Source: a virus. Taken from it: 25,056 nucleotides of DNA. The stretch covers positions 1-25,056 of IMG/VR virus record IMGVR_UViG_3300003691_000048; one strand, given 5' to 3'. Made by a program: the position numbers and the translations under genes. Shown one piece after another: positions 124 through 9,922 of the stretch; within the stretch, counting starts at the first letter, position 1; each line of letters starts with the position of its first letter. The notes under the pieces were generated by a model. It was not told the origin of the DNA. It did not search any database and saw only the letters and a program-made list of their open reading frames with translations.

Positions 124-309
124 ATGGCAAGAGACCCTGAATTGCACCAGAGATTTGTAGATAAAGTAAGTACTTACTTTAACAATCTCGACTGCATTAG
201 AGAGTTTGGCGTTAAAAAAAATACCACGGCTTGGTGTATAGCTAAAACAGCCGACACCTTTCTCCTCAAGCCTAGAACGGTAGAAGATTATATTTATAAA
301 GCAGCGTAG
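124..309 (+). CDS. Small protein, possible helix-turn-helix regulator
   Basis: This 61-residue protein is not firmly recognised. Its second half (AKTADTFLLKPRTVEDYIYK, residues 40-59) has the rhythm of a helix-turn-helix: a short helix, a turn, then a recognition helix that starts with RTVEDYI as in many small DNA-binding proteins. The first half (RFVDKVSTYFNNL) is predicted helical. A TAnnTTTG element lies just upstream and an intrinsic terminator precedes it, so it may be its own transcription unit. Small HTH-like proteins of this kind are common beside late regions of Bacteroidota phages and could be late-gene regulators, but that is inference. There is no Shine-Dalgarno site before ATG 124, which is usual for this phylum. 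Confidence 0.6.
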   Translation: MARDPELHQRFVDKVSTYFNNLDCIREFGVKKNTTAWCIAKTADTFLLKPRTVEDYIYKAA

Positions 310-2289: not shown

Positions 2290-2328
2290 CTAAGGGCCAC
2301 CGAAGTATGGTTCTTTATTTTTTTGCAT
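2290..2328 (-). other. Short reading frame in the portal-F/gpG gap
   Basis: The ATG at 2328 overlaps the end of the portal-F gene in the +1 frame and encodes MQKNKEPYFGGP before a stop. After a -1 shift near GGCCCT the reading continues as LAEVNPMPVSVQ and on for 25 residues, ending inside the next gene. Downstream, CTGTA-TCCG-TACAG forms a small stem-loop. The frames may be chance. It is listed because this 88-base gap is the longest inside the operon and is G/C-richer than its flanks. Confidence 0.2.
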
Positions 2329-4780
2329 ATAATAGAAATCCTACTCTTTCACTCGCTGCGTTTTTCATTTCAACTTCGTAAGATGTTTTAACATTAAAAT
2401 CTTTATCGGTGTTTACTACTCTAATTTTATCTTTAAAATAGGTGATGAATCGGTAAGATTTAAATGTTTTAGATCCTTTCTTTTCCTTATAATTAAGTAC
2501 ATATATTTCATGTGCTCCATTGAGCATTTTAGGGATATTGTGTACCCAAGTCCAACGACTATTTTTATTATCTTTTACAATATGATCAAACTGTTTTTTA
2601 CTAAGCTTTGTAACGTAGGTTTTCGCTCCTATTTTCGATTTCATCGTTATTTCTCCCTTTACAGCTTTGCTCTCAAACCACTTAGTAGCAGCTTCAATAC
2701 TATCTAATTTCTTCAAAGGAATTAACAGGTTTTTTCCTCTAGCATAGATCTCTTGTGCAGATCTTAACCCGTAATCTTTTACACCTTGCAACTCCCGAGT
2801 TGTATTACTGCTTAGGTTTTTAATATATGGATGATCATTACTAAAAATAAGTTGTTGCTTACCAGCATTAAACTGAAATGGCTTGGGAACCTTTGGGATA
2901 CCTTTTAGCTTTTCATCTGGAGTAATTGGTGTTCCTTTGGCAACTTGCCTAACCGTACATCTGCAAGCCCAATCTATTGGAGGGTAATATTTGTTCCAAA
3001 AAGCATCGTCAACGGGTCGGGTAATGCGATTTAGTCTTTTATGATCTTTTCGCACTTTACTATCTCCTGCAGTATTGTATTGCAAATCGAAAAGGTCTTT
3101 TTGGCTTTCAAACTTTGACCATTTACCAGCAGCTTGAGCAGTAAGCAATGCATTATTATATTCTGTTTTTAAATATCGAATATTATACTCACTGTGCAGT
3201 TTTTCTACTTCAGTTTTAAAAGTATTAAAAGGTCTTGTTTTTCCTTTTTCATCTACCAATAAGGCGCTAATTTCTGCATACTCGGTAAATATTTTTGAAG
3301 CCGAAAACACAAATAAATTACTTTGTAAATTGGCAAAGAAACCATCTTCAAATCCTGCAGAGGCTTTTGTTTCCTCCTTATTTTTAACAGCTTCAAACAA
3401 ATGGGTTGCGGTTTTGTTTACCAAGTCCCAATGTATTTTAGGAGCCGAATCTGTATAATATATGTCGCGTGCCCAGGAGAGCATGGTATTTTTTAAAGGA
3501 TCTGCACCTGCAGTAATTACTTCTGGTGTAGTTGGGTATAAATTTATTACTTCAGCTCTATGATCCGCGCTTAGTTTAGTCTTTTTTTTTTCACCCTCTG
3601 GCTCTTGGGGTGCTTGAGGTTCTGTACGTCCAATAATGGGAATGGCTGTTTTTTCTGAAATATATTCAGGATCCACTACATAACCAGAGTTAGTAATGGA
3701 GTTTACCAGATTCATTAATTCTTGTGGGCTCAACTCTTTAGTATCATCCCACTCAAAACGATGATCTTTTAATTTACTATATACCGGAGATATTAATTCT
3801 AAACGACACAGGAGCTCATCGTTGATCAAGAACTCTATAAAAGTCTTATCGTCTATATGGCGATCGTCGGCAACCTCTTTTAATATTTGCAATGATCCAA
3901 AAGTCCCTTTGGTATCTTTTGAGTCTGTGGTACCATCTTGGCCAAGTACACCCTTTGACATTTCAGAGTTCATTCGTGCCATTAGCTTGTCAAAAGTGTT
4001 ATAAGCATCAACACCTTGCATATTCATCATTTCTAGCTTTTCACCTCCCTGTAGCACAGCCCAGTGATTGCTAATCATATTTTGAAGCATATCTGCCAAC
4101 TCCTGGTGTCGGGTATCGTTATGACTATCTGTAGTTATAGTTCTTGGAGGAATGCTATATCTTTCTACAAATTCCAGCCAAGCTGCTTTGGCAAACTTTT
4201 TAGTTAATGGATCTGGGGCAATTTTCGCCAATTTACCTAAATCTCCATCCTCCCCAATTTGAATATAATAAGGAAATAGGTTTCCTTCTTTATATGGATA
4301 ACCTTTTTCGTCCCCCACTTCTTTTAAAATAAGCCCAGATTTATAATTTACATTCTCTCGAGGGACTAAACCTACGTGCATTAGTTCCATCTCTTCATTT
4401 AGATCCCAAAGCTCCAAAACGGTAGTTCCCATAAATCGCGACCACATCGACTCTTTTAAAAAGTTGTAAAACCATTTCTTTTTAAACAAAATATTGAGAT
4501 CTTTATCTTCTTTACCATTAGCATCAACGATTTTGAACTTAGAACCTAATATTTTTAAAATTCTACTCTCCAGTATCGATTGCAGGTGGCCGTCTATTAA
4601 AATACTTTCATAGACTTGTAATAAAGGTAATCTGTTAGAGCCCTCTTGAAGTCCAGCTAGCGTTAAGGCATCTTTCCAAGTTTTAATGGATTGAACACTT
4701 AAGCTTTTACTACGAGGTAATATTATATTAGAAGGTCTGTTCTTGCTATATTTTTTTCCTACTTTACTGTTTTGTGCCAT
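2315..4780 (-). CDS. Portal (DUF935-like) fused to Mu F-like head protein with C-terminal nuclease-like domain
   Basis: This 821-residue protein joins parts that are separate genes in Mu (gp29 and gp30). Residues about 20-385 match the DUF935/gp29 portal style, with an N-terminal LPRSKSLSVQSIKTW segment and a GTFGSLQ stretch near 292. A proline/charged linker (386-402) leads to a Mu F-like minor head domain at about 430-612, whose signature is complete: DSKVRKDH at 573-580, DDAFW at 591-595, PPIDWACRCTV at 600-610 with paired cysteines. Residues about 685-821 form an extra lysine-rich domain (TWVHNIP, HEIYVLNYK, SYRFITYF, RVVNTD) that resembles the barnase/EndoU/RelE-like domains seen at the ends of phage minor head proteins. 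The portal forms the dodecameric DNA gate; F-like proteins are internal head components. The C-terminal nuclease reading is tentative. Confidence 0.88.
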   Translation of the reverse strand: MAQNSKVGKKYSKNRPSNIILPRSKSLSVQSIKTWKDALTLAGLQEGSNRLPLLQVYESILIDGHLQSILESRILKILGSKFKIVDANGKEDKDLNILFKKKWFYNFLKESMWSRFMGTTVLELWDLNEEMELMHVGLVPRENVNYKSGLILKEVGDEKGYPYKEGNLFPYYIQIGEDGDLGKLAKIAPDPLTKKFAKAAWLEFVERYSIPPRTITTDSHNDTRHQELADMLQNMISNHWAVLQGGEKLEMMNMQGVDAYNTFDKLMARMNSEMSKGVLGQDGTTDSKDTKGTFGSLQILKEVADDRHIDDKTFIEFLINDELLCRLELISPVYSKLKDHRFEWDDTKELSPQELMNLVNSITNSGYVVDPEYISEKTAIPIIGRTEPQAPQEPEGEKKKTKLSADHRAEVINLYPTTPEVITAGADPLKNTMLSWARDIYYTDSAPKIHWDLVNKTATHLFEAVKNKEETKASAGFEDGFFANLQSNLFVFSASKIFTEYAEISALLVDEKGKTRPFNTFKTEVEKLHSEYNIRYLKTEYNNALLTAQAAGKWSKFESQKDLFDLQYNTAGDSKVRKDHKRLNRITRPVDDAFWNKYYPPIDWACRCTVRQVAKGTPITPDEKLKGIPKVPKPFQFNAGKQQLIFSNDHPYIKNLSSNTTRELQGVKDYGLRSAQEIYARGKNLLIPLKKLDSIEAATKWFESKAVKGEITMKSKIGAKTYVTKLSKKQFDHIVKDNKNSRWTWVHNIPKMLNGAHEIYVLNYKEKKGSKTFKSYRFITYFKDKIRVVNTDKDFNVKTSYEVEMKNAASERVGFLLYAKK

Positions 4781-4812: not shown

Positions 4813-5229
4813 TTAAAAGAGGTAATCATCATTTCCGATATTTCCCCAAAGCAATTCTTTGCGAGTGTCTATTTTTGGAAGATTTGGAACTTCAATACCG
4901 TTACGAACATCCTCGAGCCATTTATCGGCTAGTTTCTTTTCGTCTTTATAATCACTCGGTATTTTTCTTGGTGCGTTACGCCGTACCATATAATAGCAAA
5001 CTAGTGCTGTTAAATGTTTTACTACCTCAGGATCACGATCAGGGTCTACAGCTGCAAAAACAGCATCCACATCGTAGCGTTGTCGAAGCTTTGTTTTTAC
5101 TCTGGCTATTTGTTGCCCTTCTATTTGCTCGAGAGCAGCTTCATCTTCTACGTCATCGTCATCTACAAAGGTCTCGAACATGTGAGCGACTAAATCTTCT
5201 CTTTTAAGAAATACAAAGTTTAATGCCAT
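4813..5229 (-). CDS. DUF1320 / Mu gp36-like head-tail adaptor
   Basis: The 138-residue protein fits the DUF1320 (Mu gp36) family in length, in its helical, acidic N-terminal half (FLKREDLVAHMFETFVDDDD) and in the later segment (DPEVVKHLTALVCYYMVRRNAPRKIP), which resembles adaptor proteins that dock beneath the portal. Its ATG overlaps the large-terminase stop by one base (TAATG), which implies translational coupling. The portal-F gene follows after 32 bases. The expected role is a connector ring between portal and tail. No enzyme motif is present. Confidence 0.8.
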   Translation of the reverse strand: MALNFVFLKREDLVAHMFETFVDDDDVEDEAALEQIEGQQIARVKTKLRQRYDVDAVFAAVDPDRDPEVVKHLTALVCYYMVRRNAPRKIPSDYKDEKKLADKWLEDVRNGIEVPNLPKIDTRKELLWGNIGNDDYLF

Positions 5230-6743
5230 TAGTATAAGTGTTTGCGTTTAATTCTTCCGGTGCTTATGGTACCGGTTCTGTTTGAATAAATATAAGTGGA
5301 CAATTTCTCGATACATTGTTGATCTGCATCTGGAGAATCGTCCTTTGTTTTGTAATTTGGCTCTAATGCGTATAATTGAGCTAATCCTAACTGAGTATCG
5401 TTATGGCTCTTTAATTTTTCATTATACCACATTCTATTATTTTGGTAATAGGGCTGCATCGTAAGCATCCGATCGTATTTTTTACCCTTCGGAATTACAA
5501 TCTTTATGATATTTAATTTAATGCCAAATTCATCCTCTACCTCTTGGATAGTTCGCTCCACTTCATCGTTCCAGAACTGAGCCTCAAACTGCCAATGTAC
5601 AATCACACCATCGGGTAGGTTAATTTGAAAGTCGCACATAAACTCGACAGCTGCTCTCATTTTACATTGCTTTAAAAAGGTAGTTACTTTAAAGAATTCT
5701 TTACTCTTTAAGCCCCAAACTGGTACTGCATTAAAATCTGCAGTAGGAGTTCCTGCGTAAGCAACATCCCAATGTCCTACTAATGCTTCAAAATGATCTA
5801 TTCTTGGAAGTTTGCAATACTGAGTTTCTTCCGGCATAAATATTTTCCCTTGCGGGTTAGAAATATGGCAATACTCAGCATCTGCAGCTAAGGTTCCCAT
5901 TTTCTTACGTTTCTTTTTAAAGTAATCCTTTTTGTATTTCTGAAACCAAGTAGGTAATAAGGTTACCGTGTTGTAAGCCAACACTTCGTGGACTTTCCAA
6001 TCTTTATGGCGAGCAGCTAGTTTCTTTAAAAACATTATTGGAGCAAACCAGTTATTACTAAATAAAAGGCGTTCGTAAAGTCCATCAAATACTGGTAACA
6101 GTTCCTGCTCTACCCACTCCACAATCTCATCCTGGATACGTTCGTTTTTTATTGTTTTACGTGTTTCTAAATCATCTCCGCCTATTAGAGTAGGTCTTAG
6201 ATGACCAACTCTCAAACCTCTACAGCTTTGTCCCAAACCTAAAGCATGGCCAATAAAACCGCCCTTGGTAATAAAGAATCCATCTTCCCAGGATCCGATG
6301 CGTTTTTGTTCTCCAAAATCATTAATAATTCGAGGATTGTCTTGAAACTCCAAGCGGATATCCTCCAACAGCTGCTGTGCTCTTTTTTCGTTTTGACCTA
6401 TTAAAACGAAGTAGGTTTCACCTTCGTTTAACCACAACCAAAAAGGTATAATTATATTATTCCAAACAGACTTGGCCTGTCCACGACCCCATTTTGCAAA
6501 GCCTATAAATTTAGGATCCCGTTTTACCATATTAGCCCATTTAATATGAAAATCGTTACACTCGCTAGTAGCATAATGAGGGAAGTAATATTCTACACAA
6601 AATTTAACATCTTTTTTTGCACGAGCAATACGAGCTCTCTTTTCGGTTTTAGTTTCATTAATATTAATGGTACCTCCAGAGGCTCGAATAAGTTTTATCT
6701 TTTCGAGGATCCTTTCCTGTGCTTTTTTGTCTTCAGCTTTCAT
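5229..6743 (-). CDS. Terminase large subunit (Mu gp28-like)
   Basis: This 504-residue packaging motor has an N-terminal ATPase and a C-terminal RNase H-like nuclease. The Walker A region is AKWGRGQAKS (83-92). The Walker B strand is PTLIGGDDLE (184-193), with the acidic pair at 190-191 and E193 as likely catalytic glutamate. The nuclease domain supplies acidic residues at D325 (GHWDVAY), E387 (WQFEAQFW) and D469/D472 (DDSPDAD). Length and motif order match Mu gp28-type large terminases, which cut and package DNA by the headful mechanism. It follows the 86-residue gene with adjoining ends and overlaps the DUF1320 gene by one base. Confidence 0.93.
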   Translation of the reverse strand: MKAEDKKAQERILEKIKLIRASGGTININETKTEKRARIARAKKDVKFCVEYYFPHYATSECNDFHIKWANMVKRDPKFIGFAKWGRGQAKSVWNNIIIPFWLWLNEGETYFVLIGQNEKRAQQLLEDIRLEFQDNPRIINDFGEQKRIGSWEDGFFITKGGFIGHALGLGQSCRGLRVGHLRPTLIGGDDLETRKTIKNERIQDEIVEWVEQELLPVFDGLYERLLFSNNWFAPIMFLKKLAARHKDWKVHEVLAYNTVTLLPTWFQKYKKDYFKKKRKKMGTLAADAEYCHISNPQGKIFMPEETQYCKLPRIDHFEALVGHWDVAYAGTPTADFNAVPVWGLKSKEFFKVTTFLKQCKMRAAVEFMCDFQINLPDGVIVHWQFEAQFWNDEVERTIQEVEDEFGIKLNIIKIVIPKGKKYDRMLTMQPYYQNNRMWYNEKLKSHNDTQLGLAQLYALEPNYKTKDDSPDADQQCIEKLSTYIYSNRTGTISTGRIKRKHLY

Positions 6744-7003
6744 TAAATTTTTGTAATGTCTCCTGGTTTAATGATGCGATTCTGTTTTATATGAGTAACC
6801 TCTTTTTTACTAAAATCGTAGAACATATTGGTCACTACTTTTACGCGATATATTTCTTTACGATCGTTGGCGAGTTTCTTTTCACGTACTATTTGACCCA
6901 GCTTATAGCCACAGCCTTTTTCTAATAAGTAGGCTCCTATTTGTAATTGCCAGTCTTTTATGCTGCCCATATTCCAGAGCAGGGACATTATTATTTTTAT
7001 CAT
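6743..7003 (-). CDS. Unknown small protein between the terminase genes
   Basis: This 86-residue protein is not recognised. It starts inside the stop of the small-terminase gene (ATGA overlap) and its own stop adjoins the ATG of the large-terminase gene, so it is surely translated with them. It is basic, with a mostly beta-like C-terminal half (EIYRVKVVTNMFYDF...VTHIKQNRIIKPGDI) and an N-terminal helix with WNMGSIKDWQLQIGAYLLEKG. The last residues (RIIKPGDITKI) resemble the end of a small SH3-like fold. Position suggests a packaging accessory protein. M6 is an alternative start, but the ATGA overlap favours M1. Confidence 0.7.
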   Translation of the reverse strand: MIKIIMSLLWNMGSIKDWQLQIGAYLLEKGCGYKLGQIVREKKLANDRKEIYRVKVVTNMFYDFSKKEVTHIKQNRIIKPGDITKI

Positions 7004-7488
7004 TTGTATTTAAGAGCTATAGTATTAGTATGATTTTCAAAAAAGTCTAATATATCTGGATGTACTTTTTTATCCATTTCGTCTAGCATAGCAGCTAGTA
7101 TTTCCTCAGCAACATTGATGTACACATTGTAAGGTATGCGATGCTCCTTAGTGAAACTTTGAGTGTATTTATTGAGTTTTGCAATAAGATCACCTAATCT
7201 CATTTCTTCTTTAGAGATTCGCTCCTTTTCCTCCAGATCATCACCAGGATCTTCTTGAGATAAAATCAAAAGTTTTTCAGCATAGACATTACCCAATTTG
7301 TTGGCGGTTTCCTCGGCTGTTTTTATAGAACCTAATAACGCATTACGTCTATCTTTCCAATGGTATTTATCTACCCACGATCCAATGGTTTTCTCGTTTA
7401 CATTTAGGAGTTTTGAAATTTCTTTAGCTGTTTTACGCTCTTTAATATAAAGAGGCTCTGCGAGTTGTCTCTCTCTGTCTTTTGCCAT
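7000..7488 (-). CDS. Terminase small subunit
   Basis: This 162-residue protein begins with a helix-turn-helix of the phage small-terminase type: residues about 8-45 read LAEPLYIKERKTAKEISKLL then NVNEKTIGSWVDKYHWKDRR. The tryptophan after the recognition helix and the WKDRR end are typical. The rest is a long helical oligomerisation region (YAEKLLIL..., LGDLIAKLNKYTQSF). Small terminases bind phage DNA and hand it to the large subunit. ATG 7488 is preferred; an in-frame TTG seven codons upstream lies within the promoter-like motif and is unlikely. It is the first gene of the leftward operon, 160-180 bases from the divergent protease gene. Confidence 0.85.
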   Translation of the reverse strand: MAKDRERQLAEPLYIKERKTAKEISKLLNVNEKTIGSWVDKYHWKDRRNALLGSIKTAEETANKLGNVYAEKLLILSQEDPGDDLEEKERISKEEMRLGDLIAKLNKYTQSFTKEHRIPYNVYINVAEEILAAMLDEMDKKVHPDILDFFENHTNTIALKYK

Positions 7489-7501: not shown

Positions 7502-7548
7502 TAGTACAAAAGTGGTATTTAATTACCATGTTCTTAAAAGTAATATCC
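7502..7548 (-). promoter_or_regulatory. Leftward late promoter, half of a symmetric divergent pair
   Basis: Read on the minus strand, this segment ends in CCACTTTTGTACTA (7515 to 7502) with GATAT 47 bases upstream counting from the end. The same arrangement, with identical spacing, occurs on the plus strand at 7598-7644. CACTTTTG approximates the TAnnTTTG -7 element with C in place of T. The small-terminase ATG follows 13 bases after the motif. Promoter activity is inferred from position, spacing and sequence, not shown. Confidence 0.6.
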
Positions 7549-7552
7549 AAGG

Positions 7553-7600
7553 TCGTGGATACAATCACGGTTGCTCGTGGTCTGAGACCCGTATCTACGA
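7553..7600. promoter_or_regulatory. Nested inverted repeats at the centre of the divergent region
   Basis: TCGTGGATAC (7553-7562) and GTATCTACGA (7591-7600) form a ten-pair stem with one G-T position. Inside lie two smaller hairpins: CACG...CGTG (7566-7579) and the perfect palindrome GGTCTGAGACC (7579-7589). Drawn together they make a three-way junction. The element lies between the two promoter-like motifs and would serve well as a binding site for an activator controlling both operons. It is upstream of both predicted transcripts, so a DNA function is more likely than an RNA one. Confidence 0.5.
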
Positions 7601-7644
7601 TATCCCATTTTTAAAGCTTCCAATTTCACTACACTTTTGTCCTA
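7598..7644 (+). promoter_or_regulatory. Rightward late promoter, half of a symmetric divergent pair
   Basis: This segment starts CGATAT and ends ACACTTTTGTCCTA (7631-7644). Aligned with the minus-strand copy at 7548-7502, the ends agree at 12 of 14 positions, GATAT is shared, and both are 47 bases long. A common AATT lies between. It precedes the protease/capsid/tail operon by about 27 bases from the first possible start. Confidence 0.6.
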
Positions 7645-7671: not shown

Positions 7672-8859
7672 TTGAAAAATAGACGTATAAAATTATACTT
7701 AGCAGCAGCAATCATTTTTGCAAGTAGTATGACTGCTACTAGCATTCAAGAGTTGGCAGAAAACCATCCATTTGCTATTACTGCTAAGGTAAAAGAGAAA
7801 ACGGCCTATATCCGTATTACGGGGACCATTTGGAGATGGAATAACAACGCCGAGTGGTTTCGACAAAAAATTGAAGAATACAATGCTCAGGGAGTTACTA
7901 AACTACACATTTATATTAATTCCCCTGGAGGATCTGTGTTTGAAGCTAATGAGATCTGCAATGAAATAAAAACATTTAAAGGAAAAGTTACAGGAGAAGG
8001 CGGTGCTATGGTAGCAAGTGCAGCAACTGTAATTGCTTTAGAGTGTGATACTTTCGAGATGCCAAGTAATGGTCAATGGATGTATCATAAACCTATGATG
8101 ATTGTACAGGGTAATGAAGATAGAATTGAAAGTGAATTAGTTGGTTTAAAAAACCTTACAAAACAATACAAAAAAGGCTATGCTGCTAAAACCACATTAA
8201 CCGAAGCTAAAATTGAAAAGAAATGGGCAAAAGGAGATGTTTGGTTAAGTGCTGAGAAAGCTTTAAAAGAAGGCTGGATTACTGGAATCAAAAAAGAGCC
8301 TGTTAAAATATCTACCAAAGCTGTGGCACTTTTCGCAGCTTGTGGCTGTCCTACAGAATACAAGGCAGAAAAAGAAAAAAATCAAAAACCAAAATCTAAA
8401 AATATGAACGAATTAGAGGCATTAGCCCTTAAATTAGGATTGCCACAAAATTCTACTCAAGAAGTTGTGGACGCAAAATTAGAAGAAATCCAAGCATCTG
8501 CAGCAAAAGCTGAAGGACTTGAAAAATATGCAAAAGACAAGGAAGATGCAGATCAAGAAAAAGCTGTTAAAGCTTTATTAGATGGTGCCGTAAAAGACAA
8601 AAAACTGAATGCCAAGCAAGCTGAAGGTATGAAGGGATGGGCAGAGAGTGACTTTGCTGGTTGTGAGGCTCATATTAAAGGATTAGATCCTGCTGGGAAA
8701 CCTAAAGTAAGAGGTGCAGCAGATGGAGAAGCAGCTGCAACATTAGCAGATAAGAAATTTGAAGCTTTGACTGATGCTGAAAAAGACCAATTGGCCGAGG
8801 AAGATCCTGAGGCATTCTCAGCAAAGTATGAAGAGTACTTAAATACTGAAGACAAGTAA
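7672..8859 (+). CDS. Prohead protease (ClpP/S49-like) with C-terminal scaffold
   Basis: This 395-residue protein combines a ClpP-fold maturation protease with scaffold, as Mu gene I does. The protease shows INSPGGSV at 82-89 (oxyanion glycines), the serine nucleophile S116 in GAMVASAAT, the histidine H139 in MYHKP and a likely acid D189 in GDVWLSAEKA. The scaffold is the charged helical region from about 245 to the end. The frame opens at TTG 7672, with AGG five bases before; the in-frame stop at 7654 excludes anything earlier. That start gives a hydrophobic N-terminus (KLYLAAAIIFASS) that looks like a signal or membrane segment. ATG 7729 would remove it and give 376 residues. The start is undecided. 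The major capsid gene follows 28 bases later. Confidence 0.88.
   Translation: MKNRRIKLYLAAAIIFASSMTATSIQELAENHPFAITAKVKEKTAYIRITGTIWRWNNNAEWFRQKIEEYNAQGVTKLHIYINSPGGSVFEANEICNEIKTFKGKVTGEGGAMVASAATVIALECDTFEMPSNGQWMYHKPMMIVQGNEDRIESELVGLKNLTKQYKKGYAAKTTLTEAKIEKKWAKGDVWLSAEKALKEGWITGIKKEPVKISTKAVALFAACGCPTEYKAEKEKNQKPKSKNMNELEALALKLGLPQNSTQEVVDAKLEEIQASAAKAEGLEKYAKDKEDADQEKAVKALLDGAVKDKKLNAKQAEGMKGWAESDFAGCEAHIKGLDPAGKPKVRGAADGEAAATLADKKFEALTDAEKDQLAEEDPEAFSAKYEEYLNTEDK
8404..8859 (+). CDS. Nested scaffold protein (internal start in the protease gene)
   Basis: An in-frame ATG at 8404 follows a lysine/asparagine/glutamine-rich linker and an A-rich stretch (CTAAAAAT just before the ATG) of the kind used for initiation in this phylum. 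It begins MNELEALALKLGLPQNS and would yield a 151-residue protein made only of the scaffold portion. Phages with fused protease-scaffold genes, such as lambda (C/Nu3) and Mu (I/Z), commonly make the scaffold alone from such an internal start. Existence of the product is inferred by that analogy and by the ATG lying exactly at the domain border. Confidence 0.5.
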   Translation: MNELEALALKLGLPQNSTQEVVDAKLEEIQASAAKAEGLEKYAKDKEDADQEKAVKALLDGAVKDKKLNAKQAEGMKGWAESDFAGCEAHIKGLDPAGKPKVRGAADGEAAATLADKKFEALTDAEKDQLAEEDPEAFSAKYEEYLNTEDK

Positions 8860-8887: not shown

Positions 8888-9922
8888 ATGAAAAACATAT
8901 TTAAAATCATTCCATTATTGTTTATCCTACTTATTGTAGGCGTTGCCTCTGCTTTTAGTGGCGGAAACTCTGAAACTGTAAAAGTAGTAAACGATTTTGC
9001 ACCCCAAGCTGTAGTTACAACGATGGCAGTTGGTGTAGTAGATGCAGATTTACTAAATACCCTTAACGAGAAATTTATAATTAAGAAGTTTCGTCACGTA
9101 GGTACCTGGATACAGGAAATCACCTCCAAGAATAATTGGGTAAATAACGACAGTATTAAAATACCTAAACGTAAAGGCGATAATGCCCCAACGGTTTTAA
9201 TTAATAATGCAGTATATCCTATTGCCACAAGTGGTAGGTCTGACGAGCACGTTGTGGTCTCTCTTAATAAGTACGATACTGAGAATAGAGAAGTAACTCG
9301 CGATGAGTTGTACGCTATTGCTTATGATAAAGAAGGAGATGTAAATTTAGAATTAAAGGAAGAGCTTGAAGAGCAAACCACTGATCATGCATTGCATTCT
9401 ATTTCACCTCAAGCAGATGCTGCAGATACTCCAGTAATGGAAACTACAGGAGAACTTGATGGCGCTAGAAGACGATTAACCAAGGCAGATGTAATTCTAT
9501 ATAAAGGAAAGTTAGATAAACTAAAAGTGCCTTTAAAAGGAAGAATAATGGTTTTATCTCCAGATCACGCAAATGATCTATTGTTAGAAGATTCTGTATT
9601 CGAAAAAGGATACCATAACAGAGTAAGTGGAGCGATTAGTATTAACTACTACAGCTTTAAAATCTATGAGGAAGTATATACTCCTACCTATGATCAAGTA
9701 GCAAAAACAAAATTAGCTTTTGGATCTGTTGCTCCTGGAAGAGTCTCCAGTATTGTATTCCATAAAAAATCTACTGTAAAAGCTACCGGAACTGTTGAGC
9801 GTTTTGCAAGAGACAAAAAGACGGATCCAGAAAACAGAAAATCTGTAGTAGGATACCAATTATACTTTGGGTGTTTTGCAATTAAAGATGCAGGCCAAGG
9901 GGCTATTATTTCTGGAGCATAA
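8888..9922 (+). CDS. Major capsid protein with signal-like N-terminus
   Basis: The 344-residue protein directly follows the protease/scaffold gene and has the length and composition of an HK97-fold capsid subunit. Typical stretches include LKVPLKGRIMVLSPDHANDLLLED (about 213-236, written here only by its role as the P-domain segment), and the final GYQLYFGCFAIKDAGQGA. The surprise is the start: MKNIFKIIPLLFILLIVGVA then SAFSGG reads as a textbook Sec signal peptide, with lysines, a 15-residue hydrophobic core and an ASA-F cleavage context. M46 (9023) is an alternative start that would drop it. The hydrophobic segment could instead be removed by the maturation protease. Function is assigned from order and size; HK97 fold is an inference. 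Confidence 0.85.
   Translation: MKNIFKIIPLLFILLIVGVASAFSGGNSETVKVVNDFAPQAVVTTMAVGVVDADLLNTLNEKFIIKKFRHVGTWIQEITSKNNWVNNDSIKIPKRKGDNAPTVLINNAVYPIATSGRSDEHVVVSLNKYDTENREVTRDELYAIAYDKEGDVNLELKEELEEQTTDHALHSISPQADAADTPVMETTGELDGARRRLTKADVILYKGKLDKLKVPLKGRIMVLSPDHANDLLLEDSVFEKGYHNRVSGAISINYYSFKIYEEVYTPTYDQVAKTKLAFGSVAPGRVSSIVFHKKSTVKATGTVERFARDKKTDPENRKSVVGYQLYFGCFAIKDAGQGAIISGA

Follow-up and report, generated by a model that had tools for sequence, protein, structure and literature searches.

A probable mirror-symmetric, bidirectional late promoter with a countable operator array in Mu-like phages of Bacteroidota

The results described below indicate that the gap between the two divergent gene arms of a Mu-like phage probably contains a bidirectional, activator-dependent late promoter, in which mirrored promoter segments enclose an operator array that would be filled by dimers of a helix-turn-helix (HTH) protein of ~60 residues. 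The evidence comprises a mirrored pair of promoter-like boxes, a quantised spacing between them, repeated near-palindromic units in the interval, a single-copy HTH gene near the late block, and co-variation of this protein with the operator. The DNA analysed is an IMG/VR virus record of 25,056 bases (hereafter the window), a fragment from which the early region is missing; judged by its genes, it is a Mu-like, Winoviridae-like phage of Bacteroidota, with the late half encoded. The Mu-type gene matches are Portal_Mu (1.5e-58), Phage_Mu_F (6.7e-13), Gp36 (4e-4) and Phage_tail_S (5e-6), and the terminase large subunit (TerL) is 51% identical to that of phage Peternella_1, which shares the gene order and layout of the window and carries a MuA-type transposase. 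The leftward (-) arm encodes a gpP-like terminase small subunit (TerS), TerL, a Gp36-like protein (DUF1320), a portal-MuF fusion, a gpG-like virion morphogenesis protein and a Gp37-like protein, and the rightward (+) arm a Clp-type protease, capsid, sheath (DUF2586) and tail genes; the mirrored segments occupy the gap separating them. The portal-MuF fusion (2315-4780, -) also bears a C-terminal PBECR2 nuclease-like domain (E 5e-5, just under the Pfam cut-off), a toxin-like domain carried on a portal/head protein. For TerS, the ATG at 7488 (MAKDRE...) is more likely to be the start than the TTG at 7509, because the MAKD start is conserved in relatives. The features concerned are as follows.

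124-309 (+): 61-residue HTH protein, candidate late activator, homologue of Peternella gp28
5229-6743 (-): terminase large subunit, the query for finding relatives
7000-7488 (-): terminase small subunit (Terminase_5/gpP-like HTH), by profile match, start chosen from relatives
7507-7514 (-): -7 box CACTTTTG of the predicted leftward promoter (terminase small and large, DUF1320, portal-MuF, gpG-like and Gp37-like genes), aligned with the box in relatives
7535-7539 (-): -33-type T-rich element TTTTA of the predicted leftward promoter, at the offset of ATTTT in relatives
7541-7561: first predicted operator unit, TAATATCCAAGGTCGTGGATA, centred on 7551 and lying 37 bp from the -7 box of the leftward promoter
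7563-7583: second predicted operator unit, AATCACGGTTGCTCGTGGTCT, centred on the mirror axis at 7573
7585-7605: third predicted operator unit, AGACCCGTATCTACGATATCC, centred on 7595 and lying 37 bp from the -7 box of the rightward promoter
7607-7611 (+): -33-type element ATTTT of the predicted rightward promoter
7632-7639 (+): -7 box CACTTTTG of the predicted rightward promoter (protease, capsid and tail genes), aligned with the box in relatives
7672-8859 (+): Clp-type head maturation protease/scaffold, TTG start
8888-9922 (+): probable major capsid protein, from position and synteny with Peternella gp40

The mirrored divergent segments, noticed earlier in the window, are real, and their common centre of symmetry at base 7573 is borne out by both pairs of coordinates, as (7502 + 7644)/2 and (7543 + 7603)/2 both give this value. 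The length of 47 bases given for each segment in the earlier note becomes 46 on recounting (right, 7599-7644, +; left, 7547-7502, -). The segment ends, ACACTTTTGTCCTA and CCACTTTTGTACTA, do agree at 12 of 14 positions, and CACTTTTGTNCTA occurs exactly twice in the record, once per strand (7502-7514, -; 7632-7644, +), with no occurrence of the reversed-pattern control anywhere in the 25,056 bases. As to the shared GATAT start, the right segment indeed reads GATAT...TCCTA, but GATAT is not conserved in relatives and carries no weight; what is conserved across relatives is the -7 box, an ATTTT-type -33 box and the units in between.

Relatives were collected by terminase-based scans (28 loci in the first, and 80 each from genomes and from viral contigs in those that followed), giving 150 loci with a divergent TerS/protease pair, 114 of them non-redundant at TerL identity below 90%. 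The protease as a single query retrieved no relatives, and blastn of the region against phages returned no match. The TerL frames of L022 (5001-6129) and L024 (5001-6531) are interrupted, by decay or assembly error. The mirrored pair sits between the divergent terminase-small and protease genes of the relatives: mirrored NMnnTTTG boxes lie at exactly 118 bases, the distance seen in the window, in 41 of the 114 loci and at 117 bases in a further 12, against a mean of 1.3 per distance and a maximum of 4 in the reversed-pattern control over the same loci. With a leave-one-out matrix, a pair is detected in 91 loci, compared with 9 of 342 shuffles. The expectation that the paired motif would recur in related phages is thus upheld, but its spacing is not a single number. 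The distances between -7 boxes are quantised (74, 95-99, 116-120 and 135-140), with 61 loci near 118, 14 near 95, 11 near 137 and 2 at 74, together 88 of 114; the remaining 26 contain no pair under the box-pair model. Because the centre of the outermost unit lies 37 bp from each -7 box, these distances follow d = 2 × 37 + (N - 1)p = 74 + (N - 1)p, where N is 1-4 units and p is about 21-22 bp, and the quantisation persists where the intervening sequence has diverged, at TerL identities down to about 24-50%.

The motif common to both sides, which had been taken for a late motif, consists largely of a modified host -7 box. In relatives it reads ATTTT, 20 bases, (C/G/A)AnnTTTG (82 sites), with an information peak at -25 to -21 from the 5' base of the -7 box corresponding to the -33-type element; by its composition it is a predicted promoter, made up of a Bacteroidota -7 box in variant form and, upstream of it, a -33 box of the ATTTT type. 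It resembles the TTTG/TAnnTTTG promoters of Bacteroidota sigma-ABfr (PMC6847099, PMC7366714) in the AnnTTTG core and in having a box near -33, and departs from them in the first base (C, G or A instead of the nearly invariant host T-12) and in having ATTTT for TTTG near -33; phage boxes thus retain AnnTTTG and do not match TAnnTTTG. In Flavobacterium johnsoniae, T-12, A-11, T-8, T-7, T-6 and G-5 of the -7 box TANNTTTG are nearly invariant, and transcription starts 4-5 nt downstream of the box (PMC6847099), a scale on which the predicted starts in the window fall at ~7502-7503 (-) and ~7643-7644 (+). T is absent from the first -7 position in all 82 seed sites and present in 8 of 176 sites of the wider PWM set, compared with 24% of NAnnTTTG in the same loci, the seed figure being the cleaner because the matrix that selected the wider set penalises T. 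This departure from the host T suggests weak promoters needing help. A sigma-70 promoter scan was discarded as irrelevant for Bacteroidota.

Between the boxes, self-match peaks occur at lags of 21 and 22, and near-palindromic units repeat every 21-22 bp, i.e., two helical turns. With the -33 elements trimmed, these being symmetric by construction, palindrome analysis places symmetric axes at 0 and ±10.5 in the 95 class and at 0, ±11 and ±22 in the 118 class. When unit number and period were fitted freely, the outermost centre fell 37 bp upstream of the 5' base of the -7 box in most loci, and an offset scan from 31 to 43.5 gave a sharp optimum at 37.0 in each of the three testable classes (95, 118 and 137). 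At this offset, 67 of 86 loci have units at p ≤ 0.05, compared with 14-30 of 86 at wrong offsets, the shuffle p-values being generous and not calibrated, in that roughly one locus in four passes even when the offset is wrong. Clear arrays are those of L073 with two units (TCGTAGGGTACGA), L130 with three (ACCCATnATGGGT) and L116 with four (ACCATCATGGG). The four L116 units (5059-5140, period 21) are near-identical, which points to recent unit duplication or homogenisation. Several Bacteroidales arrays (in the gap regions of L108, L060, L028 and L026) have in common a unit of the GCAA-n-GTTGC type despite distant terminases. The half-site in the window is close to CGTGGWYW, and its three units at the fixed geometry reach a shuffle p of 0.0012, on the same generous shuffle that 14-30 of 86 loci pass at wrong geometries. 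These units are imperfect; when fitted freely, their consistency (0.37) falls below the null 95% value (0.40) and is not significant. The case rests on the relatives.

The frozen matrix was applied to 27 unseen non-redundant loci from a new scan and from cultured phages. It detected a pair in 21 of these. All 21 distances lie within the allowed windows, which span about 11% of the range, and 20 of the 21 loci have units at the geometry frozen beforehand, although the held-out loci are kin of the training set and not fully independent. Two cultured phages are among them, Peternella_1 of Winogradskyella and the Bacteroides hankyphage p00, the latter with d = 117 under the frozen model and TAATTTCG as the right box; Elizabethkingia phage TCUEAP3, whose TerL is 24% identical, obeys the rule too. 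In phage fF4, the frozen model gave no pair; counting by hand gives d = 74 with a weak unit. Mapped on the TerL tree, N has changed 13 times, with supported branches accounting for at least 8 of the changes, so that the spacing rule has outlasted repeated gain and loss of units.

The protein that would read these units is most likely the 61-residue HTH protein (124-309), as a dedicated late activator resembling Mu C/Mor in action. Homologues of its gene occur in 75 loci, where they lie some 4 kb beyond TerL and are encoded on the other strand, and Peternella gp28 also belongs to the family. Of 11 records in which the gene at first appeared to be absent, 9 have a single copy close by; in nearly all records the gene is single-copy and at the edge of the late block. 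The window protein has no naming match in Pfam, PHROGs or PDB sequence searches; the only hit for the family is a weak NCBIfam match (CD3324_fam), and none of 30 members matches the Pfam Mor model (PF08765) at E ≤ 1. In the AF2 model (pLDDT 84), a helix (5-23) and a hairpin precede the HTH (35-45/50-59). Foldseek returned no significant match for this model; comparison with known structures gave middling Z to many HTH domains, with no Mor structure among the matches listed. A second comparable operator copy was sought in the 37.5 kb of Peternella and in the best-defined loci and none was found, so that the protein appears dedicated to this single region. In Bacteroidales relatives and hankyphage (L070, L077, L081, L108, L072, L050, L191), other small HTH-like ORFs occupy the corresponding place downstream of the portal block and are perhaps separate activator families with the same job. 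By eye, the L050, L072 and L098 proteins resemble ORF14 of fF4, a phage of the same layout, which was matched to Mu mor by HHpred (PMC7761591). L032, L042 and L124 have BRO-N/KilA-like putative regulators of about 190-240 aa near the late-block end, in the place taken by the small HTH gene in other phages, and here the small gene is further out.

Co-variation links this protein to the units. Over 40 loci, operator similarity correlates by rank with that of the HTH protein (r = 0.35) more than with that of TerL (0.10), TerS (0.20) or the protease (0.23), in a comparison that covered these four proteins. The partial Mantel correlation of the HTH protein is 0.34 given TerL and 0.30 given TerS (both p = 5e-4), the reverse partials of TerL and TerS given the HTH protein are about 0.02-0.03 and not significant, and the HTH protein alone is thus left as tracking the operator. 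At the level of single residues of the recognition helix and bases of the half-site, the couplings K51/T5 (p = 3e-4), R51/G5 (p = 5e-5) and L48/A1 (p = 9e-5) are obtained with kinship ignored; when independent pairs are counted, the tally is 4-5 to 0, with p of about 0.06-0.13. Among 14 new loci, K51/T5 holds in 5 of 5 (p = 0.03) and R51/G5 in 2 of 3, L48/A1 is not significant, and Peternella violates the R51/G5 rule.

In the predicted mechanism, an array of N near-palindromic operators (1-4; three in the window), spaced 21-22 bp apart on one helix face, lies between two divergent promoters whose boxes are of the host type except that the first -7 position is not the usual T. The HTH protein would be expressed ahead of the late genes, and each operator would be filled by one dimer. 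The outermost dimers, lying just upstream of each -33 box with their centres about -49 from the start, would recruit host RNA polymerase or activate it for leftward and rightward transcription simultaneously, turning both arms on together, and the inner operators would aid cooperative filling. We infer transcription, binding and dimerisation, and favour activation over repression because of where the units lie and because the boxes deviate from the consensus; cooperativity and activation as such are assumed. The earlier proposal of a regulator site shared by two mirrored promoter-like segments, with packaging (leftward) and capsid/tail (rightward) genes switched jointly, is supported as a predicted reading. 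In place of one regulator site at the centre, however, there are N = 1-4 units, of which, with the three of the window centred at ~7551, 7573 and 7595, only the middle one sits at 7573.

Other readings of the array were weighed. The same architecture might be filled by another protein, either a host factor or an early-region BRO-N/KilA-like regulator near the late block, and several phages do carry larger putative middle-region regulators (e.g., Peternella gp24); we regard this as unlikely, since the operator sequence varies with the small HTH protein but not with TerL, TerS or the protease, nearly all records have one copy of the HTH gene next to the late block, and a host factor would have no need of a different site in each phage. 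That the array is a repressor operator silencing both late promoters until induction is quite improbable: three operators between divergent promoters do recall the lambda OR layout, but the units are all located upstream of the -33 boxes and leave the -7 boxes uncovered, at a 37 bp offset in the testable classes, as for polymerase contact, and the non-T first base of the -7 box speaks for promoters in need of help.

The repeats adjoin the gene for TerS, which has its own HTH domain, and could in principle form its packaging site. This is very improbable, as the units are locked to promoter boxes on both sides and TerS similarity adds nothing beyond the HTH protein (partial 0.02, p = 0.22). Moreover, the ends of Peternella are Mu-like, with host/phage hybrid reads (PMC8776804), and packaging should therefore not start mid-genome. 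It is scarcely credible that two ordinary host promoters merely face apart, with a symmetry due to chance or shared ancestry: the -7 box does resemble the host TAnnTTTG (PMC6847099), but the distances stay quantised at the TerL divergence given above, independent changes of N keep the rule, and the held-out result (21/21) contradicts this reading.

The bidirectional, activator-dependent promoter favoured here is worth comparing with known systems. It shares with the Mu late promoters (lys, I, P, mom) under C, and with Pm under Mor, the setting of a transposable phage and a small HTH activator, here a candidate, encoded before the late virion genes. The late genes of Mu run one way, from separate promoters, whereas in the present phages a single intergenic region, with its mirrored promoters and operator array, would drive transcription both ways, so that the earlier contrast with Mu was a fair one; the window-type protein, at ~60 aa and outside the Pfam Mor model, also differs from Mor and C. 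In phage P2, divergent late promoters of the packaging and capsid operons are likewise under one small phage activator, Ogr, which is zinc-binding and has its own sites at each promoter; we know of no mirrored N-unit array with quantised spacing in P2. The lambda right operator similarly comprises a set of palindromic sites, separated by about two turns and placed between divergent promoters, but these overlap the promoters and act unequally, whereas the phage array is symmetric and stops short of both. Small late activators in transposable phages and divergent promoters sharing an activator, as in P2, are thus already known; the mirror geometry with a countable operator array, the spacing rule and the unnamed ~60-residue family are not described in the papers examined. 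A keyword search of the hankyphage, fF4 and Peternella papers yielded no description of a late promoter or activator at this site, and late gene control in Bacteroidota phages is essentially uncharacterised.

Altogether, and with somewhat less assurance than for the promoter itself, we think it likely on balance that there is a phylum-wide class of transposable phages with a strictly mirror-symmetric bidirectional late promoter, obeying d = 74 + (N - 1) × 21-22 bp and read by unnamed ~60-residue activators that would be among the smallest natural ones, the recognition helix co-evolving with the operator by a partly readable code. Given only the sequence of a new phage, the spacing rule locates its operator and both of its predicted late starts, and the loci with N = 1 to 4 form a natural set of helical-phasing variants. 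The candidate activator is small enough for its specificity code and minimal activation contact to be worked out, and the region may provide a compact two-way promoter part for Bacteroidota genetics.
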